Assembly (NCBI GenBank): GCA_002748015.1 | Contig: PDRH01000026.1 | Span: 1 to 32,799 of the forward strand | Length of the DNA: 32,799 nucleotides | Reading direction: 5' to 3' | Source: Bacteroidota bacterium | Lineage (GTDB): Bacteria; Bacteroidota; Bacteroidia; Bacteroidales; CAJPTX01 | In this document: one piece after another, positions 5,931-25,026 of the stretch | Numbering within the stretch: the first letter of the stretch is position 1 | Layout of the letters: the number at the start of each line of letters is the position of its first letter | Translations under genes and position numbers: made by a program | The notes under the pieces: generated by a model | The model's input: only the letters and a program-made list of their open reading frames with translations | The model's database searches: none | Told to the model about the DNA's origin: nothing

Positions 5931-7097
5931 ATGGACTACTCATCCATTGTTGCCTTCGTGCGGGAGCTATATGCCACCAGCGAGTTTATACCCCTCTCTG
6001 TACCCCGCTTCGTTGGCCGGGAGAAGGAGTACCTATGCGATTGCATAGATAGCACCTTCGTTTCCAGCGTAGGTGAGTATGTTGATCGCTTTGAGCTGGA
6101 AGTAGCGGAATATACCGCCAGCCCCTATGCCATCGCCTGCGTGAATGGTACGAATGCCCTGCACATCGCGCTGGAATTGGTAGGTGTACAGCCCGGTGAG
6201 GAGGTGATTACCCAGCCCCTCACCTTCGTGGCGACCTGCAACGCCATAGCCTATGCTGGAGCTGTTCCCGTATTCGTCGATGTCGATATGCAGACTATGG
6301 GTCTTTCGCCCGATGCCCTTCGAGCCTGGCTGCAGGATAATGCCGCGATGCGTGGTGGTGAATGCTACAATAGGCATAGCGGTCGGCGCATTAGGGCCTG
6401 CATACCCATGCACACCTTTGGTCATCCCGTGCGTTTGGATGAGCTGGTGCCCATTTGCCAGGAGTGGGGGCTAGAGTTGGTGGAGGATGCCGCCGAGAGC
6501 CTCGGAAGTCTCTACAGGGGGCATCACACGGGTACATTCGGTCGCATCGGTATACTTAGCTTCAACGGCAACAAGACCATCACCACCGGTGGCGGGGGCA
6601 TGCTCCTCATGCGGGACGAGGAGTTTGCCCACCGGGCTAAACACCTGACCACGCAGGCCAAGATACCCCACCCCTGGGAGTTCTGCCATGATGGGGTGGG
6701 CTACAACTACCGCATGCCCAACATCAATGCGGCTCTGGGATGCGCCCAGCTAGAGCAGCTGGAAACCTTTCTGAACGATAAGCGCCAGCTGGCTACGGAG
6801 TACGCCGCGTTCTTCGCCACCCTCGACGGGATGGATTATTTCCAGGAGCCAGAGAATGCTCAGTCCAACTACTGGCTGCATGCCGTCCTGCTCAGGGACA
6901 GGAAGGAGCGCGATGCATTCCTCGAATATACCAATAGCCAGGGCATCATGACGCGCCCCATCTGGGAGCTTATGCCCCGCCTACCGATGTTTACCAATAG
7001 CCAGCGTGGCCCCCTACCCCACGCTGAGGAGCTGGCTGACAGGGTGGTCAATCTACCCAGCAGCCCCCGCCTCAATGATGGGGGGGGGTATGAGTAG
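5931..7097 (+). CDS. LegC-family PLP-dependent nucleotide-sugar 4-aminotransferase (DegT/DnrJ/EryC1)
   Basis: FIPLSVPRFVGREKEYLCDCIDSTFVSSVGEYVDRFE..., EVITQPLTFVATCNAIAYAGAVPVFVDVD, EDAAESLGSLYRGHHTGTFGRIGILSFNGNKTITTGGGG. Confidence 0.9.
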   Translation: MDYSSIVAFVRELYATSEFIPLSVPRFVGREKEYLCDCIDSTFVSSVGEYVDRFELEVAEYTASPYAIACVNGTNALHIALELVGVQPGEEVITQPLTFVATCNAIAYAGAVPVFVDVDMQTMGLSPDALRAWLQDNAAMRGGECYNRHSGRRIRACIPMHTFGHPVRLDELVPICQEWGLELVEDAAESLGSLYRGHHTGTFGRIGILSFNGNKTITTGGGGMLLMRDEEFAHRAKHLTTQAKIPHPWEFCHDGVGYNYRMPNINAALGCAQLEQLETFLNDKRQLATEYAAFFATLDGMDYFQEPENAQSNYWLHAVLLRDRKERDAFLEYTNSQGIMTRPIWELMPRLPMFTNSQRGPLPHAEELADRVVNLPSSPRLNDGGGYE

Positions 7098-12050: not shown

Positions 12051-13127
12051 ATGAAGAGCTGGAAACGTAGCATAGTAGTAACGGGGGGGGCTGGTTTTAT
12101 TGGTTCGCACGTTGTGCGCCTGTTCGTGTCAAAGTACCCGGAGTACCGGGTGATTTGCCTGGATAAGCTGACGTATGCGGGCAACCTAGAGAATTTGCGG
12201 GATGTGGAGGATGCGCCGAACTATGCCTTTGAGCGGGTGGATATTTGCGATTTTGCAGAGGTGCAGCGGGTGTTCCGTGATTATGCCATAGATGGGGTTA
12301 TCCATCTGGCGGCTGAGAGCCATGTGGACAGGAGTATCCGCGACCCCTTCACCTTTGCGCAGACGAATGTGATGGGTACGCTTACGTTGCTGCAGGCGGC
12401 TCGTCTCTACTGGGAGGGGCTACCGACGGGGTACGAGGGGAAGCTGTTCTACCATATCTCTACGGATGAGGTGTACGGTGCGCTGGAGATGGAGGGTGGC
12501 TATTTCGTGGAGACGACGAGCTACGATCCGCATTCGCCCTACTCTGCCTCAAAGGCGAGCTCTGACCACTTCGTGCGTTCGTTCCACGATACGTACGGTA
12601 TGCCTACGCTGGTGACGAACTGCTCGAATAACTATGGGCCCAACCAGTTCCCGGAGAAGCTGATACCGCTGTTTATCAATAATATCCGTGAGGGTAAGCC
12701 CCTGCCGGTGTACGGTAAGGGGGAGAACGTGCGGGATTGGCTGTACGTGCTGGACCATGCCCGGGCGATAGATACGATATTCCATAGGGGGAAGGTGGGG
12801 GATACGTACAACATCGGCGGGTTCAACGAGTGGCGGAATATAGATTTGATTCGGGTGATAATTGAGACGGTGGATAGGTTGCTGGGGCATGAGGCTGGTC
12901 ATTCGCTGGGCTTGATTAGCTATGTACAGGATAGGGCTGGGCATGATTTGCGCTACGCGATAGATTCGACGAAGCTGAAGGAGGAACTGGGGTGGGAGCC
13001 CTCGCTGCAGTTTGAGGAGGGGATAGAGAGGACCGTCCGCTGGTATCTGGACAACGGGGAGTGGGTGGAGCGGATAACCTCTGGGGAGTATGCGCGCTAC
13101 TACGAGGAGATGTACGGTGGACGTTAG
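12051..13127 (+). CDS. rmlB: dTDP-glucose 4,6-dehydratase
   Basis: [109 protein letters not shown]. Confidence 0.96.
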   Translation: MKSWKRSIVVTGGAGFIGSHVVRLFVSKYPEYRVICLDKLTYAGNLENLRDVEDAPNYAFERVDICDFAEVQRVFRDYAIDGVIHLAAESHVDRSIRDPFTFAQTNVMGTLTLLQAARLYWEGLPTGYEGKLFYHISTDEVYGALEMEGGYFVETTSYDPHSPYSASKASSDHFVRSFHDTYGMPTLVTNCSNNYGPNQFPEKLIPLFINNIREGKPLPVYGKGENVRDWLYVLDHARAIDTIFHRGKVGDTYNIGGFNEWRNIDLIRVIIETVDRLLGHEAGHSLGLISYVQDRAGHDLRYAIDSTKLKEELGWEPSLQFEEGIERTVRWYLDNGEWVERITSGEYARYYEEMYGGR

Positions 13128-13168: not shown

Positions 13169-14614
13169 TTGAGCGATACGCTAAAGGATAGGACTGCGAA
13201 GGGTATGGGCTGGAGCCTGCTGGATAACCTGGCGGGTGCTGGCATTACCTTCCTTGTGGGGCTTGTACTTGCGCGGTTACTTTCGCCGAGCGAGTACGGG
13301 ATACTGGCCATCGTGATGATATTCATCGCGGTGTCGAACTCCATAGTGGATAGCGGCTTTTCGAGCGCGCTGGTGCGGAAGGTGAAGGTGAGCCCGTTGG
13401 ACTACAATACGGTTTTCTACTTCAATCTGGTGGTTAGCGCGGTGCTCTACGTTGGTCTGTACTTCCTGTCGCCCTTCATTGCGGATTTCTTCGGGCAGGC
13501 GATACTGGTGCCGGTGACGCGGGTGATCGGGGTTGTGCTGGTTATCAACGGCCTGGCCATCATCCCCCGGACGATTTTCGTTCGCAGCGTGAACTTCAAG
13601 TCGCAGATGTTGGCTTCGCTCATTGCCTCTGTGGCCAGCGGGGTTGTGGGTATCGGTATGGCGCTGATGGACTACGGGGTGTGGAGTTTGGTGGGGCAAC
13701 TTATCACTCGTCAGCTGCTGCTGACGGTATGCTTGTGGTGGCTATCCAGGTGGACACCGGCATTGGAGTACTCGTGGGAGAGCTTTCGGGAGCTATTCAG
13801 CTTTGGGTCTAAGCTACTGGTTGCGGGTTTGATAGATACTGTGTATCGGCATGTTGTAGAGTTTGTCATAGGGAAGTTCTACACGACGGGGGAGCTGGGG
13901 CAGTATACGCGGGCAGACCAGTTTGGCAATCTGGTGGCGGGCAACATGACTAGCGTTATTCAGCGCGTGAGCTATCCGGTGCTGAGCTCGATACAGGAGG
14001 AGCCGGAGCGGCTGCTGGAGGGCTTTCGCCGGGTGATAAAGTCGTCGATGCTGCTGTCCTTTGCGGCGATGTTCGGCATGGCGGCGTGCGCTAGGCCGAT
14101 GGTGCTGCTGCTCATAGGGGAGAAGTGGTTGCCGTCGGTTTACTACCTTCAGATTCTGTGCCTTTCGGCCTCTCTCTATCCGTTGCATGCGATAAACCTG
14201 AATATTCTGCAGGTGAAGGGGCGGTCGGACTTATTCCTCCGCCTGGAGGTGTACAAGAAGCTGCTGGGGGTGGGGCCTATTCTGCTGGGGATATTCTGGG
14301 GTATTGTGCCGATGCTGTGGGGGGGAGTTGTGACATCGGTGCTGGCCTTCTTCTTGAATAGCTACTACTCCGATGCCCTGCTTTCCTACCCGTCGTTGAT
14401 GCAGGTGAGGGATGTGGCGCCGACTTTCTGCGTCTCGCTGGTGGTGGCGGGGTGCATGTGGTGCGTTACGTTGGTGCCGATGGCTGTGTATTTCCAGCTA
14501 GCCGGGCAGGTGCTGCTGGGGGGTGGGCTGGCTTTGCTGCTCTACGAGTACTTCCGGCCGGCGGAGTACCTGGAGCTGAAGGAGATAGGTTTGAAACTAA
14601 TACTGAGGAGGTAG
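13169..14614 (+). CDS. Wzx-type oligosaccharide flippase (MOP superfamily)
   Basis: Multi-TM protein with GMGWSLLDNLAGAGITFLVGLVLARLLSPSEYGILAIVMIFIAVSNSIVDSGFSSALVRK, typical of lipopolysaccharide flippases; TTG start preceded by a GA-rich RBS. Confidence 0.9.
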   Translation: MSDTLKDRTAKGMGWSLLDNLAGAGITFLVGLVLARLLSPSEYGILAIVMIFIAVSNSIVDSGFSSALVRKVKVSPLDYNTVFYFNLVVSAVLYVGLYFLSPFIADFFGQAILVPVTRVIGVVLVINGLAIIPRTIFVRSVNFKSQMLASLIASVASGVVGIGMALMDYGVWSLVGQLITRQLLLTVCLWWLSRWTPALEYSWESFRELFSFGSKLLVAGLIDTVYRHVVEFVIGKFYTTGELGQYTRADQFGNLVAGNMTSVIQRVSYPVLSSIQEEPERLLEGFRRVIKSSMLLSFAAMFGMAACARPMVLLLIGEKWLPSVYYLQILCLSASLYPLHAINLNILQVKGRSDLFLRLEVYKKLLGVGPILLGIFWGIVPMLWGGVVTSVLAFFLNSYYSDALLSYPSLMQVRDVAPTFCVSLVVAGCMWCVTLVPMAVYFQLAGQVLLGGGLALLLYEYFRPAEYLELKEIGLKLILRR

Positions 14615-14617
14615 ACC

Positions 14618-15730
14618 GTGGAAAAGAAACCGATAAATGTAACCTCGCCGCTCCTTCCGGATCTGGAGGAGTTCATCCCCTACCTTCGGGAGATTTGGGA
14701 TAGCGCTTGGTTGACGAATAATGGGAACTACCACCAGGAACTGGAGGAGGCGTTGGCCGATTACCTGAAGGTGCCGTACATAAGCCTCTTTGCCAATGGG
14801 ACGTTGCCGCTTATGTGTGCGCTGCAGGCGCTGCGGGTAACGGGCGAGGTGATTACTACGCCCTATAGCTTTGTAGCGACAACGCATTCCCTGTGGTGGA
14901 ATGGGGTGCGTCCGGTCTTTGTGGATATAGACCCGGTAACGTGCAATCTGGATCCGGGGCGTATCGAGGCGGCCATTACCCCTCGAACGACTGCGATCAT
15001 GCCCGTGCATTGCTATGGACAGCCGTGCGATACAGTGGGCATACAGGAGGTGGCGGATAAGTATGGACTGCGGGTTATCTACGATGCGGCGCATGCCTTT
15101 GGGGTTGAGGTGGATGGCGGTGGTATCTGCTGCGCGGGGGACATGAGCACGCTGAGCTTCCATGCGACGAAGGTGTACAATACCATAGAGGGGGGGGCGC
15201 TGGTGTGCCATGATGCGAAGACGAAGGAGCGTATAGACCGGCTGAAGAACTTCGGTTTTGCGGGTGAGGTGGAGGTGATAGCCCCTGGTATAAACGGCAA
15301 GATGGATGAAGTGCGGGCAGCGTATGGGCTGCTCAACCTGCGGCAGGTGGAGGGGGCAATTGCCCGTCGCCGGGCGGTGGTGGAGCGGTATAGGGAGGCG
15401 CTGTGCGGGGTGGCGGGCATTTCGTTCTTTGAGGATCGGGATGGGGTTCGCCAGAACTACGCCTACTTCCCGATCTTCGTGGATGAGGGGGTGTTCGGGA
15501 TGAGCCGTGATGCGCTCTACGAGCGGATGAAAGGGGCGGGGGTCATGGGGCGCCGGTATTTCTACCCGCTGATTAGCGATTTCTCGACGTACCGGGGCTT
15601 GCCGTCTGCCCGTGCGGAGAATCTGCCGGTGGCTCGGCGGAAGGCTAGTGAAGTAATTTGCCTACCTTTGCATGCGGATATGGGTGAGGGGGATGTGGAG
15701 CGGGTGCTGGGGAGTATTGTGGATGTTTAA
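14618..15730 (+). CDS. DegT/DnrJ/EryC1 aminotransferase, VioA-like (dTDP-4-amino-4,6-dideoxyhexose forming)
   Basis: VTSPLLPDLEEFIPYLREIWDSAWLTNNGNYHQELEEALADYL, TTPYSFVATTHSL, YDAAHAFGVEV, LSFHATKVYNTIEGGALV; GTG start. Confidence 0.87.
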   Translation: MEKKPINVTSPLLPDLEEFIPYLREIWDSAWLTNNGNYHQELEEALADYLKVPYISLFANGTLPLMCALQALRVTGEVITTPYSFVATTHSLWWNGVRPVFVDIDPVTCNLDPGRIEAAITPRTTAIMPVHCYGQPCDTVGIQEVADKYGLRVIYDAAHAFGVEVDGGGICCAGDMSTLSFHATKVYNTIEGGALVCHDAKTKERIDRLKNFGFAGEVEVIAPGINGKMDEVRAAYGLLNLRQVEGAIARRRAVVERYREALCGVAGISFFEDRDGVRQNYAYFPIFVDEGVFGMSRDALYERMKGAGVMGRRYFYPLISDFSTYRGLPSARAENLPVARRKASEVICLPLHADMGEGDVERVLGSIVDV

Positions 15731-15733
15731 GCT

Positions 15734-17035
15734 ATGATAGAGGCATTTGTACTGCGCAATGTGCTATCTTTTCGTGATGAGGTAGTTCTGAGCTTTATCG
15801 CCGATGAGGGGGTGGGAGGTGGTGCCTCATCGTATTGTGTGGAGGCTGCGCATGGGATACGCCTTTTGCGCTTGGCTCTGCTCTTCGGTGGGAATGCTTC
15901 GGGGAAGACGAATGTGCTGGTGGCGCTCCATTTCCTACTTCAATTTATGGCTTCTTCCTCAGAAGGAGAGTCTAATAATCTGAGCAAGGGAATCGCCCTG
16001 GAGCCCTTTATCCTCGATGAGGTCTCCCGCGAGCAGGAGTCGAGACTTGAGCTCTATTTCCATCCTCGCAATTCGACGGGGGGGTATAGTCGTTACCGCT
16101 ATGAGCTTATATTCATCAAGGAGGGGGTACTGAGTGAGCGTTTGTGGGTCTATCGTACGAGTAGACCAAGCCTTTTGTATGATAGGGGAAATGGGGAGAT
16201 TCGCTTTGGCTCTGCTTTAGGGGCAATCCCTCGCGCTGTAAGGGATGAGCTGAAGGTGAAGACGCTTCGTAATATGTCCGTCTTGGCAGCCTATGCCCAG
16301 GTGAATTTTGCCAATCCAGATTTGGAGCGCGTAGTTGGCTGGGCGGTATCATATTTAGCCTCTAGCAATCCTCATCCACAGAGTATCCGCGATATGGCGC
16401 AGTACTTGTGGGATAATAAGGATCTTATTCCCCGGCTTGTTGAGCGCATGCGTTTTGCTGATTTCAATATTTCTGATATTCGTCCGGAGGTGCAAGAGGT
16501 TGACATTGAGGTGCCATTGCCCTTTGACGATATCCTGAATAAGGAGTCTGAGGGGCGTGGAAGCGGGGCTCCCCCTGTCCGTACCATTCGTAAGAGGATG
16601 GTGCGTTTGCTGTTTGAGCATGAGGTGCAGGTGGATGGGGAGCTTCGAAAGCGTTGGTTGAATGCTCATATGGAGTCGGCTGGTACGTTGGGCTTGCTGA
16701 ACCTGTTTCTAAAGGTCGCTTTTGCATTTGAGGTGCATGGCTGTATTCTGGCGGATGAGATTGAGCAGTCGCTGCATCCAACCCTGCTCGAGGATTTTCT
16801 GGATCATTTCCTCTATGCAGAGAGCGATTCGCAGCTCATTGCATCGACGCATTTGGACTCCTTGCTACACTATGTAGATGCGATTATTCGGCGGGATAGC
16901 ATTTGGTTTACTGAGAAGGATGAGGAGGGAGTCTCGGATTTGTACTCGCTGATGGTAATTAAGGGTCTGGCTAATATAAGCGATTTTCGCAAGGCGTATC
17001 GGGATGGTCTTTTGGGAGGTGTTGCCTATGTCTAG
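15734..17035 (+). CDS. AAA-family (ABC/OLD-like) ATPase, RloA-like
   Basis: IEAFVLRNVLSFRDEVVLSF, Walker A LLFGGNASGKTNVLVALHFLLQFM, HMESAGTLGLLNLFLKVAFAFEVHGCILADEIEQSLHPTLLEDFLDHF, SQLIASTHLDSLL. Confidence 0.88.
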   Translation: MIEAFVLRNVLSFRDEVVLSFIADEGVGGGASSYCVEAAHGIRLLRLALLFGGNASGKTNVLVALHFLLQFMASSSEGESNNLSKGIALEPFILDEVSREQESRLELYFHPRNSTGGYSRYRYELIFIKEGVLSERLWVYRTSRPSLLYDRGNGEIRFGSALGAIPRAVRDELKVKTLRNMSVLAAYAQVNFANPDLERVVGWAVSYLASSNPHPQSIRDMAQYLWDNKDLIPRLVERMRFADFNISDIRPEVQEVDIEVPLPFDDILNKESEGRGSGAPPVRTIRKRMVRLLFEHEVQVDGELRKRWLNAHMESAGTLGLLNLFLKVAFAFEVHGCILADEIEQSLHPTLLEDFLDHFLYAESDSQLIASTHLDSLLHYVDAIIRRDSIWFTEKDEEGVSDLYSLMVIKGLANISDFRKAYRDGLLGGVAYV

Positions 17036-17612
17036 CTTGCGAAGAAAATCTAAGCGGGAGCGGGAGCGTGGAGAGCCAGTCCCTGTGCTGATAGTGGAAG
17101 GTGAGTGTGAGCGTAGCTATTTCAATCTGCTGCGTAGTAAGAGATTCCCGTTTAGGGTGAGGCTACCGAAGCCCTCAAGCTCTATGGCTAAGCTACGGAG
17201 CATCATAGATGCAGAGCTTTTGGTGGCTTCACGAGTCGTTGTGGTGTATGATATGGATGTTCAGCAGGATAAAAGCGTTGCTGCGAATTGGCAGGAGCTA
17301 CGCGATAGCTATGAGGGGCAGGGGGTAGAGTTCGTTTTGAGCAATCCTTGCTTTGAGTACTGGTTTCTCTTGCACTTCATTGAGGAGTACGGTGTGATGT
17401 CCAGCCACCAGCTTTTGCAGAAGTTGAAGAGATATGCTCCAAATTATGCCAAGAGCTCCACTGGTATAAGGGCGATTTCGCAAGCGATTGATGGGATGCG
17501 TGAAGAGGCGATAAAGCGAGCGGATAGGTCGTGTTCTCGGTATGAAGAGTTTGAGGGTGGTTCTTTCACTCAGGTGGGCGGTTTCCTACGTAAAATGGAG
17601 GAGAAGGTATGA
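17028..17612 (+). CDS. RloB-family protein (Toprim-like motifs)
   Basis: VPVLIVEGECERSYFNLLR, VVVVYDMDVQQD, FVLSNPCFEYWFLLHFIEEYG; ATG 17028 (M9 of the called ORF) overlaps the ATPase stop. Confidence 0.82.
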   Translation: MSSLRRKSKRERERGEPVPVLIVEGECERSYFNLLRSKRFPFRVRLPKPSSSMAKLRSIIDAELLVASRVVVVYDMDVQQDKSVAANWQELRDSYEGQGVEFVLSNPCFEYWFLLHFIEEYGVMSSHQLLQKLKRYAPNYAKSSTGIRAISQAIDGMREEAIKRADRSCSRYEEFEGGSFTQVGGFLRKMEEKV

Positions 17613-18799
17613 AGAAGCTGCTGCTGCTAGGTGCTCAGGATACGCACCTGCCGCTGATACGGCGGGCGAAGGAGCGTGGGGTGTACGTGATTACCTGCGA
17701 CTACCTGCCGGAGAATCCTGGCCATAAGCTGGCTGATGAAGCCTACTATGATAGCACGACCGATCGTGAGGCCGTGCTGCGCTTGGCGGAGCGGCTGGGG
17801 GTGGATGGCATCATGACCTTCAGCTCTGATCCGGCGGCGCCCGTTGCGGCGTGGGTGGCTGAGCGATTGGGCCTACCCGGCGGGGGGGCTGAGGCCGTGC
17901 GTATCATGTCGGAGAAGGATGCCTTTCGGGACTTTCTGCGGAAGCATGGTTTCAGGGTGCCACGTTTCTCGAGCTATACCAGCCTTGATGGGCTGCGGGG
18001 AGATTTGGAAAGTCTCAGTTTCCCCTTGATGGTAAAGCCGGTGGATGCGTCGGGTAGTAAGGGGGTGGAGCGTGTTGCGGATGCGGATGCCCTGCTGCAG
18101 TGCTTCGAGGGGGCGCTTGCCTACTCCCGTTCTGGTCGCGTAATCGTGGAGGAGTGCATCGATAGCGACTATCCGCAGCTGCATGGGGATGGCTTCGTGT
18201 TGGGGGGCGAACTGGTATTCCTGCAGCTGGGGGATCACCATTTCAACCCTGAGGTGAATAATCTGGTGCCGATAAGCAGCACATTCCCCTCTGGGCAGCC
18301 GGAGGAGCAGGTGAAGCGGGTGGAGGAGGAAATCCGTCGTTTTATTCGTTTGGTGGGCTACCGTCAGGGGGCGATTAACGTGGAGGCGCGGGTTTCTGCT
18401 GGGGGGGAGGTCTATATTATTGATATAGGGGCGAGGAATGGTGGTAACTTCACGCCTCAGACCATCGAATACTCGACTGGTTTCGATTTCGTAGATGTAG
18501 GGCTGAGCGTGGCATTGGGCGAGCCGTTGCAAATTCCTTCTGCGGTGCGGCGTGCCTGCTATAGCCATCTGGTCGTGCATGCAGCTGCGGATGGCGTTTT
18601 GGACGGCCTAGAGTTTAGCGAGATGCTGAGGGAGCAGATAGTGGAGTGGCATCCTTGCGTGGAGGTGGGTGCATCGGTCTTTGCGTTTCGGCGTGCCAAT
18701 GCGGCCATTGGGGTGCTGATTGTTCGGTCTGATAGTGTTCGGGAGCTGAATGGTGTTGCTGATGGGATGGACGAGCATGTGCGGGTGTACTTGCGATAG
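17609..18799 (+). CDS. ATP-grasp domain protein (paralogue 1)
   Basis: MKKLLLLGAQDTHLPLIRRAKERGVYVITCDYLPENPGHKLADEAYYDST, FPLMVKPVDASGSKGVERV, VIVEECI, YIIDIGARNGGNFTPQTIEYSTGFDFVDVGLSVALGE. Confidence 0.92.
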   Translation: MKKLLLLGAQDTHLPLIRRAKERGVYVITCDYLPENPGHKLADEAYYDSTTDREAVLRLAERLGVDGIMTFSSDPAAPVAAWVAERLGLPGGGAEAVRIMSEKDAFRDFLRKHGFRVPRFSSYTSLDGLRGDLESLSFPLMVKPVDASGSKGVERVADADALLQCFEGALAYSRSGRVIVEECIDSDYPQLHGDGFVLGGELVFLQLGDHHFNPEVNNLVPISSTFPSGQPEEQVKRVEEEIRRFIRLVGYRQGAINVEARVSAGGEVYIIDIGARNGGNFTPQTIEYSTGFDFVDVGLSVALGEPLQIPSAVRRACYSHLVVHAAADGVLDGLEFSEMLREQIVEWHPCVEVGASVFAFRRANAAIGVLIVRSDSVRELNGVADGMDEHVRVYLR

Positions 18800-19019: not shown

Positions 19020-20221
19020 ATGAAGAAGTTGCTGTTGCTAGGGGGGTTGAGATATTTGCTCCCAGTTATTGAGAAGGCTCACAAGCTAGGGATGTATGTT
19101 ATCACCTGCGATAATGTGCCGGGGAATATTGCGCATAGGTATTCGGATGAGTATTGCGATGTAAGCATATTGGATCTGGAGGCAGTGTTGGCACTGGCGA
19201 AGGCGAAGCGAATCGATGGCATCATGTCCTTTGCGGTTGATCCAGGCGTTGTTACGGCGGCGTATGTGGCTGAGCAGATGGGTTTGCCACATGTAGGTTC
19301 GTATGATTCGGTGCGTATTCTGCAGCATAAGGATTTGTTCCGGGCATTCCTGCGAGATAATGGGTTCAATGTCCCGATGTCTGGTGGGTATAGCGAGTAT
19401 TCGGAGCTACTTGATGATATTGGGCGGTTTACCTTTCCGGTCATCGTCAAGCCTGTGGATTCTGCGGGTAGTAAGGGGGTTTGCCGTGTTGAGGGGATTG
19501 AGGAGCTGAAGGGTGCCTTCGCCTTTGCTAGGGCTAGTTCGTTCAGTGGTCGCGTGATAGTGGAGGAGTTCATTGAGGCTGAGGGGTGCTCTTCTGATAC
19601 AGATTGCTTTTCTCAAGATGGGGAGCTACGTTTTATAAGCTTCAACGACCAGATGTTTGAAGCGGAGAGTGCCAATATTTATGCGCCGAGTTCCTTCATA
19701 TGGCCTAGTGGGATGGCATCTTCGTCTCAGGACTGTCTAGCATCGGAGCTGCAACGCTTGGTGCGTTTGCTTAGCTTGGGCTCGTCGCTCTACAATGTGG
19801 AGACGCGGGTTGGATGTGACGGTAAGCCCTATATCATGGAGTTCTCTCCGAGGGGGGGGGGAATCGCCTGTCGGAGGTGCTAGGGATGGCTACTGGTGTG
19901 GATTTGATAGAGGCGGCCGTACTGGCGGCTGTGGGTGAGCGTTTTGACCTCCCTGCGACCTATGGCTATGATGGGGTTTGGGCGGAATTGGTACTCTTTG
20001 CGGAGCAAGCGGGGAGATATAATGGTTTACACATAGATGTGCGACTTCGGCCTTTCATTGTGGAGGAAGATGTATGGGTTGATCTTGGCGATTTTGTGCA
20101 TCAGTTCACGGGTGCGAATGAGGCGATTGGTACAATCGTATTCCGTTTTTCTAGCCGGGCAGAGGCGGATGAGATTTGGTCTGGGATTCGGAAGATGGTA
20201 AAGGTAGATGTGGTGCGATGA
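19020..20221 (+). pseudogene. ATP-grasp domain protein (paralogue 2), reading frame interrupted at a G10 tract (frameshift, phase-variable or sequence error)
   Basis: ORF 19020-19883 reads MKKLLLLGGLRYLLPVIEKAHKLGMYVITCDNVPGN...IMEFSPRGGG then goes out of frame (IACRRC*); the next frame continues NRLSEVLGMATGVDLIEAAVLAAVGERF... to 20221. One added G restores SPRGGGNRLSEVLGMATGVDLIEA, the expected ATP-grasp C-terminal region. Confidence 0.85.
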
Positions 20222-21324
20222 GGAAGAGAATAGCGGTACTAGGGGCCAACGAACCATTGCTACAGTTCTATAGGAAGGTAGACCGTTCTCGCTTTGAGGT
20301 GCACGGTATAGCGTGGGCGGATGGCAGCGTTTGTCGTGATTACTGCGATGTTTTCCATCCATTAGACCTGCGGGATAGGGCTGGGGTTCTTTCCCTGTGT
20401 GAGAGCCTCGGCATCGAGGGGGCCAGCACCTTCAGCCTGGAGAGCGCCGTGCCCTTACAGGTCTTTTTGGCTGAGGAGTTGGGCTTGGTACATCCGGGCT
20501 CTTCTGTGAAAGCCTGGGTTGGGAATAAGGCGATGCTTAGGGATATGCTCCGTCGAGAGGATGTGGGGTATAATCCTGCGAGCCAAAGCGCTAGCCTTTT
20601 CTCGGCGTTGGATTTGGCCGAGATGCAGTTCCCGGTGGTTGTCAAGCCGATGGATGGCGGCGGGAGTCGAGGGGTTGTTCTTGCCAAGGGCGAGAGCGAG
20701 TTGCCTGATGCTTTTGCCTATGCGCAATCGCATTCGAAGTGCGGTGAGGTGGTTGTAGAGGAGTTCCTCCTGGGTGAGGAGTTCTCGGTGGAGTATATTT
20801 CATATGGGGGTAGGCACTATTTTCTGGCTTTGACCAGGAAGCGTACGAGTGGGGCGCCGCATTTCGTGGAGCTACATCATACGCAGCCTTCTGGTGTAGA
20901 TGATGCCTGCCAGTTGGCCGTGCGGGCTGTTGTCGAGAGGGCGCTCGATGTTCTAGGTATAGAGAATGGCGTGAGCCACACGGAGATTATCATCGGTAGC
21001 GATGGACGGGTGAGCGTTGTGGAGGTAGGCCCTCGCATGGGGGGGGACTATATAACGTCCCATCTGACCGAGCTTAGCACTGGTGTCGATTTGGTCAACC
21101 TGAGCTTGTCGTTAGCTTGTGGGGATTTTGCCCCTCCCGTCGTGGAGCAGCAGCCGGGGGGCGGGGTGCTATTCTATACCCCCGATACCCGGCAAGAATT
21201 TGAGGCTATGCTGCATGGAGCGAATGTGATCGAGAGTGCATGTGCGTCCTTAGCCGGCACCTGTGAGAACAATATGGAGCGGAGTGGCTATTTGGTCTAT
21301 AGGAATGTGCTAGGGAATGGTTAG
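20218..21324 (+). CDS. ATP-grasp domain protein (paralogue 3)
   Basis: RKRIAVLGANEPLLQFYRKVDRS, FPVVVKPMDGGGSRGVVLAKGESEL, VVVEEFLLGEEFSVEYIS, VVEVGPRMGGDYITSHLTELSTGVDLVNLSLSLACG; ATG 20218 overlaps the TGA at 20219-20221. Confidence 0.9.
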   Translation: MRKRIAVLGANEPLLQFYRKVDRSRFEVHGIAWADGSVCRDYCDVFHPLDLRDRAGVLSLCESLGIEGASTFSLESAVPLQVFLAEELGLVHPGSSVKAWVGNKAMLRDMLRREDVGYNPASQSASLFSALDLAEMQFPVVVKPMDGGGSRGVVLAKGESELPDAFAYAQSHSKCGEVVVEEFLLGEEFSVEYISYGGRHYFLALTRKRTSGAPHFVELHHTQPSGVDDACQLAVRAVVERALDVLGIENGVSHTEIIIGSDGRVSVVEVGPRMGGDYITSHLTELSTGVDLVNLSLSLACGDFAPPVVEQQPGGGVLFYTPDTRQEFEAMLHGANVIESACASLAGTCENNMERSGYLVYRNVLGNG

Positions 21325-23943: not shown

Positions 23944-25026
23944 ATGTACCTACTATATATCCTTCTGCTCCTGATGTGTTTTGCCTACCTGCGGCGTAGG
24001 TTAAATGGCGGGGAAGCAGCCTTCTACCATTCGCCCCTGGTGCTGGCCGGGCTGTTTCTCTTCGTGGGGGTGTATGCGGTGTTCTCGGATGACTATTTCA
24101 TCTACCAGGAGATCGTAACGAAGCTAATTCCGACAGGTAATTATACCAGGTTCACTCCCTTTTGGAATGCTTATGCTGAGGCTATAGGTAATACTAATAC
24201 GCTTTTCCGCTTATTGACGCTTGGTGGAGGCCTGTTGCTGCTGTCTTGGCAGGGGCACTTGCTCCGATTGCGCTATTTGGAGCTTTTGCCCTGGTTTATC
24301 GCTCTGGCGGGTATGCATCTGATTACGTGGCTACGCTTTGAGTTGGCCTGTATGCTTTTTGTGCTGGGCATGACGCTATGTTTGCGACGGAAGGCGATTG
24401 GTCTTGTTGTGGTTCTTTTGCCGTTCGTACTGCATCCGGCATCGTTCCTTTTTCTGCTTGGAGTTGGTATTTACCTGCTCAATCCCCAACGGTTAAGCAT
24501 GCGAGTATTGATGTGGTTGGGGGTGCTGCTGGTGTTGAGCTGTCTGCCGTTGCTGGTAGACCTTGCCATTGAGGTGTTTGGTATTTCCTCCTTCTGGTAC
24601 TACGTGAAGTATTTCCGGTGGGGGGATGCATTCTATCGGCGGCATTTTCTGTATGCGCTATGGGGCTACATGATCTATGTGCTGGGGCTTATTGTAGTTT
24701 ACCTTTTTTCGCGAGTTGGTCGGTGTAGTCCTTCTCCGCTGGCGCAGAAATTGACTCGTTTGATGGAGGCTTTTGGGCTTCTTTCCCTCCTATTCAATTT
24801 CATTCCGGTAACTCCGCATATTTCTGTTCGCTTGGCTGGTATAGCGTTCTATATTGCCTGTGTAGTTGGTGCAATGAGTATGCGCCAGCTTCGAGTGTTT
24901 GCGCATCGTAAGCTACTGCTTTGGATGGTGGTGTGCTTGCTGGTCATGAGCGGTATGGAAACCGTTGCTAACCATCATGATGATCTGCGAGTACTGTATG
25001 ATATTATGTATGCGTTAGCCTCGTAG
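23944..25026 (+). CDS. EpsG-family / Wzy-like polysaccharide polymerase (multi-TM)
   Basis: Multiple hydrophobic helices; SDDYFIYQEIVTKLIPTGNYTRFTPFWNAYAEAIGN...FRLLTLGGGLLLL resembles the EpsG family. Confidence 0.75.
   Translation: MYLLYILLLLMCFAYLRRRLNGGEAAFYHSPLVLAGLFLFVGVYAVFSDDYFIYQEIVTKLIPTGNYTRFTPFWNAYAEAIGNTNTLFRLLTLGGGLLLLSWQGHLLRLRYLELLPWFIALAGMHLITWLRFELACMLFVLGMTLCLRRKAIGLVVVLLPFVLHPASFLFLLGVGIYLLNPQRLSMRVLMWLGVLLVLSCLPLLVDLAIEVFGISSFWYYVKYFRWGDAFYRRHFLYALWGYMIYVLGLIVVYLFSRVGRCSPSPLAQKLTRLMEAFGLLSLLFNFIPVTPHISVRLAGIAFYIACVVGAMSMRQLRVFAHRKLLLWMVVCLLVMSGMETVANHHDDLRVLYDIMYALAS

Follow-up and report, generated by a model that had tools for sequence, protein, structure and literature searches.

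An AbiL-type gene pair, probably an anti-phage module, between two surface-polysaccharide genes of a Bacteroidales genome

The locus and its gene junctions

The window, meaning the whole stretch of DNA that was analysed (32,799 bp), is an entire contig. The source assembly (1.44 Mb, 142 contigs, 69% complete) is apparently metagenome-derived. As revealed by a Pfam scan of the window proteins, a surface-polysaccharide locus fills most of the window. It encodes a UDP-GlcNAc 2-epimerase, a UDP-sugar dehydrogenase, nucleotidyltransferases and a GDP-mannose-4,6-dehydratase/RmlB-type enzyme, together with a flippase, aminotransferases, ATP-grasp ligases, LicD, a phosphoethanolamine-transferase/sulfatase-type protein and GT2. 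Two further genes, for an ATPase and an RloB protein, lie in line with the glycan genes (Table 1). No other defence genes were found in the window, and no restriction-modification (R-M) genes among the window proteins scanned with Pfam. An HsdR gene is present elsewhere in the source genome, outside the window.

Table 1 Positions of the gene pair, its flanking genes and the inferred insertion, in window coordinates.
Feature	Position	Strand	Remark
Wzx-type polysaccharide flippase	13169..14614	+	Just 5' of the aminotransferase gene; flippase-aminotransferase order kept in other loci
DegT/DnrJ/EryC1 (VioA-like) aminotransferase	14618..15730	+	Left flank of the insertion
RloA / AbiLi-like ABC (OLD-type) ATPase, 433 aa	15734..17035	+	Pfam, PADLOC, motifs, model
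RloB / AbiLii-like Toprim-type protein, 194 aa from ATG 17028	17028..17612	+	Pfam, PADLOC, alignment, model
First ATP-grasp ligase	17609..18799	+	Right flank of the insertion; in other genomes, next gene after the aminotransferase
Inferred insertion extent	15731..17608	+	Aminotransferase stop to ATP-grasp start

The two ORFs were present where an earlier note on this DNA had placed them. Its description of the outer junctions was also correct: the ATPase ATG (15734) lies 3 nt past the aminotransferase TAA (15728-15730), and the RloB TGA (17610-17612) overlaps the ATP-grasp ATG (17609) as ATGA. The ATPase gene, which stops at TAG 17033-17035, overlaps the RloB gene as the note had described, but the overlap is more likely 8 nt than 32 nt. 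This follows from the RloB start, which is best placed at ATG 17028 (ATGTCTAG), because homologues align from there, rather than at ATG 17004 (which would give 202 aa).

A promoter search gave a single promoter-like match, which lies within the aminotransferase gene; the number expected from shuffled sequences was 3.3, and no match lay beside the pair. Between the pair and its neighbours there was no terminator-like signal beyond chance. A separate leader would not fit in either. The pair is thus likely to be expressed by read-through, and the gene spacing suggests that it is co-expressed with the glycan operon.

The codon choice of the pair had also been described as more A/T-rich than that of its neighbours. 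This holds for the immediate neighbours, with GC3 of 0.70 and 0.67 versus 0.54 and 0.55 in the pair. The genes in the downstream half of the glycan locus, however, are as A/T-rich as the pair (GC3 0.45-0.61). Composition alone thus does not mark the pair as foreign, and we ruled it out as proof of transfer.

Identity of the two proteins

The ATPase matched AAA_21 in Pfam (6.6e-29, above the curated cut-off) and AbiLi in PADLOC (PDLC02335, 7.2e-58, 194 bits); it also matched AriA in PADLOC, more weakly than AbiLi. The second protein matched RloB in Pfam (4.4e-23, above the curated cut-off) and AbiLii in PADLOC (PDLC02337, 1.5e-20), with no AriB model among its PADLOC matches. The HMM search that the earlier note had suggested therefore returned both an ABC-ATPase and an RloB match, in line with the RloA/RloB identity proposed there. 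Judged by these sequence profiles, the pair is of the AbiL type (AbiLi/AbiLii), a known phage abortive-infection system, and this name is more exact than RloA/RloB. A carbohydrate-related Pfam domain was not found in either protein.

Every Walker, signature and switch residue is kept in the ATPase: Walker A GGNASGKT, signature ESAGT, Walker B ILADEIE, D-loop SLHP and H-switch STH. The protein deviates at one of 46 near-invariant (90% conserved) family positions. By sequence profile, its matches among solved structures were PtuA, GajA and AriA, and its AlphaFold model (pLDDT 79) had fold matches to Rad50/SMC heads and PtuA. In the ATPase tree, the window sequence fell within a well-supported clade of 20 sequences (99/100), which contained all eight R-M-linked pairs. 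Its exact place within this clade is unsure because of its very long branch, which at 2.28 (median 0.39) exceeds all other end branches in a comparison of 48 relatives. The branch of the adjoining aminotransferase was just ~2 times its median. The long ATPase branch means either that an intermediate clade is missing or that the protein evolved fast; the function of the ATPase could have drifted, though the conserved sites are kept.

All eight residues that do not vary among 36 homologues (Y31, D75, D77, E110, W112, H116, K142 and A161) are kept in RloB, as is E28, which is nearly invariant. D75, D77 and E28 are candidate residues of a Toprim-type acidic centre. RloB deviates at one of 14 near-invariant positions (T27C). 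The structural model was of modest confidence (pLDDT 67). Its leading PDB folds were small Toprim proteins, with weak matches (E 0.02-0.09) and none below E 0.001, and the RloB sequence had no convincing match in the PDB. Against viral structures, the sole significant match of the model was a phage 'RloB-like protein'. With a modest model and weak PDB fold matches, the Toprim assignment leans on a published analysis that describes RloB as an OLD_TOPRIM relative and AbiLii as a TOPRIM_OLD effector (PMC10440598).

We also considered whether the pair is what is left of a defence system in decay, or the product of a false join in the assembly. The 69% completeness of the assembly and a frame break at a ten-G tract in a neighbouring gene would fit such an origin. 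However, both frames of the pair are open and full length, the conserved positions are kept, and both junctions are gene-exact, unlike a random join; decay or misassembly is thus highly improbable.

Relation to known systems

AbiL of Lactococcus lactis has the same gene order, an ATPase gene followed by an adjacent or overlapping RloB-type gene, and both of its PADLOC models match the window pair. In the Lactococcus prophage proPhi7, a pair at the prophage end is annotated 'abortive phage resistance protein'. The window ATPase aligned end to end with its proPhi7 counterpart, and the window RloB over most of its length, each at 26% identity. AbiL of Lactococcus resides on a plasmid or prophage, whereas the window pair, at ~26% identity, resides in a glycan operon.

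The rloA/rloB genes of type I R-M loci belong to the same two families, and the ATPase shares its clade with all the R-M-linked pairs. They differ in that the window has no restriction gene, and we rejected membership in the R-M-linked rloAB group since no R-M gene was among the window proteins scanned with Pfam. PARIS (AriA/AriB) likewise combines an ABC/OLD-type ATPase with a separate Toprim effector, and the window ATPase matches AriA by sequence. The effector, however, is of the RloB/AbiLii family without an AriB match in PADLOC, and PARIS membership was rejected. So was membership in Septu or retron PtuAB: the PtuA equivalog score of the ATPase was 24.9 bits, far under the cut-off of 500, and the partner is RloB, not HNH.

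Another likeness is the NetFlax pair D44 TOPRIM_OLD : D29 AAA, where D44 is described as an RloB/AbiLii homologue paired with an AAA ATPase antitoxin (PMC10440598). In toxicity-neutralisation assays in E. coli, one of the pairs examined was an RloB-type TOPRIM_OLD:AAA pair of Clostridium algidicarnis; unlike the window sequence, the tested pair is clostridial (PMC10440598).

Homologues and their neighbourhoods

Relatives of the ATPase at E <1e-15 occurred in 83 of 393 sampled genomes of the order (the window's own included), the closest of them in the order being 37% identical. In nearly every inspected locus with an ATPase relative, the next gene was RloB (confirmed for locus L076), and the ATPase-RloB order is kept across phyla. 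HsdR lies immediately 3' of RloB in five loci (L072, L074, L077, L080 and L091). Other neighbours of homologues were DNA methylases, HsdS, phage integrases and AbiH. A Phocaeicola plasmid homologue has TIR and SIR2 proteins and a retron HNH nearby, and a Persicobacter plasmid homologue AbiEi and Cas9.

On a mobilizable E. coli plasmid of 3.9 kb (L179, NZ_CP148421.1), the ATPase-RloB pair (93-2058) is the only cargo, and rop and mobA are the only other annotated genes. Such a plasmid is a handy natural clone for tests of the ATPase-RloB family. Small plasmids much like it recur in E. coli and Salmonella records.

The pair might mainly be a toxin-antitoxin addiction module that stabilises a highly exchangeable glycan locus, with phage defence secondary. 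In line with such a role are the toxicity-neutralisation assays of an RloB-type toxin with an AAA antitoxin in E. coli (PMC10440598), the frequent occurrence of homologues on small mobilizable plasmids, and the gene content of this kind of glycan locus, which varies strongly among relatives. On the other hand, homologues adjoin restriction and other defence genes, and the pair occurred in none of 40 orthologous aminotransferase loci. Moreover, Abi systems behave like toxin-antitoxin pairs anyway. We consider a primary addiction role unlikely, and an AbiL-type defence module the better reading.

The earlier note had argued that translational coupling to glycan genes speaks against loose cargo. 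This did not hold, because the family packs equally tightly against restriction, TIR and other genes: RloB overlaps HsdR by 4 nt in L074 and a TIR gene in L112, and RloA overlaps the preceding ORF by 4 nt in L076. The empty site in 13 loci, described below, also contradicts the argument.

Only two of the 38 homologous pairs taken from the order lay within four genes of a gene similar to the window glycan genes. In one of the two cases (L090; G065:C23, 1355-11351), the pair lies ~1.9 kb past the end of a glycan operon, and this is a possible second case of defence beside glycan genes. The L090 operon contains glycosyltransferases, DegT and a sugar transferase, and small ORFs lie between operon and pair.

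The empty site

Orthologues of the aminotransferase, 59-74% identical, are widespread in the order. A comparison of orthologous loci, as the earlier note had suggested, showed 13 other loci in which an ATP-grasp gene directly follows the aminotransferase on the same strand, with a gap of -4 to +10 nt and nothing in between. The ATP-grasp protein was at least 32% identical to that of the window in 11 of the 13, and more remote (25-27%) in the other two. The best empty-site match was L156 (flippase 56%, aminotransferase 67%, ATP-grasp 47%), which also has a 42% relative of the window gene at 21317, so that nearly the window's gene order is found without the pair. A congener (G001) also lacks the pair, but it is uninformative, having no close aminotransferase orthologue.

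On the evidence of these 13 empty sites, the pair is a clean-edged insertion of ~1.88 kb between normally adjacent genes, and not part of the glycan pathway. It took over the ATGA-style junction that several of the empty loci show between aminotransferase and ATP-grasp genes. A target-site duplication was not detected (no shared word of >=8 nt within ~60 nt of each insertion edge), and the repeats near the edges were short and mostly at chance level. The simplest guess for the insertion route is gene-level exchange in a variable glycan locus.

A role as part or regulator of the glycan pathway, with the pair co-opted away from defence, would agree with its in-line position at minimal gaps between the aminotransferase and ATP-grasp genes, and with the long ATPase branch. 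The flanking genes, however, are adjacent without the pair in 13 orthologous loci, homologous pairs in the order are only twice in 38 near such glycan genes, and the pair has no carbohydrate-related domain. Such a co-option is very doubtful, and the non-defence role that the earlier note had left as an option is accordingly disfavoured: orthologous glycan loci do without it, and nearly all homologous pairs lie away from such glycan genes.

Across 40 aminotransferase loci (L139-L178), the gene right behind the aminotransferase varied strongly (ATP-grasp, hexapeptide transferase, GT2 and others), and this variation suggests that the slot is a natural exchange point. As a class, glycan loci do not look like defence islands: among 115 unassigned genes around the 40 orthologous aminotransferases there were at most a few PADLOC matches, all of them to 'PDC' candidate families.

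A probable anti-phage module in a glycan operon

Taken together, the pair is probably an AbiL-type two-gene anti-phage module inserted in a surface-polysaccharide operon, expressed by read-through, with the ATPase restraining the RloB nuclease. From the interpretation in the earlier note, the RloA/RloB identity and a defence-type module in line with the polysaccharide operon stand, and the coupling argument falls. The module, sitting between two neighbouring glycan genes, would be transcribed and translated by operon read-through. ATPase and RloB would form a sensor-inhibitor complex, in which the ATPase keeps the Toprim-type nuclease RloB in check. RloB may then be freed or activated by a phage trigger and would damage nucleic acid, aborting the infection. 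The damaged molecule is possibly tRNA, by analogy with AriB, the PARIS effector, which cuts tRNA (PMC12409363). We infer the nuclease activity of RloB, its substrate, the trigger and the phage protection from related systems; for RloB, the published record comprises toxicity-neutralisation assays of the clostridial RloB-type/AAA pair and the phage phenotype of AbiL (PMC10440598).

The kind of system is already known, and the pair is otherwise ordinary as a defence system; its address in a glycan operon is unusual. Defence islands, prophages and plasmids are the usual places to look for defence genes. In this genome, an anti-phage module of two genes, already known in kind, fits cleanly between two conserved genes for surface sugars, and the empty site can be seen in other genomes. 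Our literature search for defence genes within capsule loci or O-antigen loci gave no paper directly on this subject.

The arrangement might be adaptive wiring, with a promoterless AbiL module made only when the glycan operon is on, so that the state of the surface, as outer barrier or receptor, is paired with a matching intracellular suicide defence. We give this only a small chance, and the data neither support nor exclude a wiring of defence to the surface glycan. If the pair is expressed with the glycan operon, this one locus could be used to test whether internal defence is wired to surface (phage-receptor) variation.

Other features of the glycan locus

A run of ten G (19852-19861) lies inside the second ATP-grasp gene, exactly at a frame break, where ORF 19020-19883 runs on in a different frame as 19877-20221. 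The tract is either phase-variable or an assembly error. More runs of 8-9 G occur in same-strand glycan genes (7080-7088, 12083-12090, 15190-15197 and 21039-21046) and are possible slippage sites. The protein encoded at 23944-25026 is strongly hydrophobic, with a mean hydropathy of 0.91 and six TM-like windows; it had no Pfam or PHROG match and is a candidate O-antigen/EPS polymerase.
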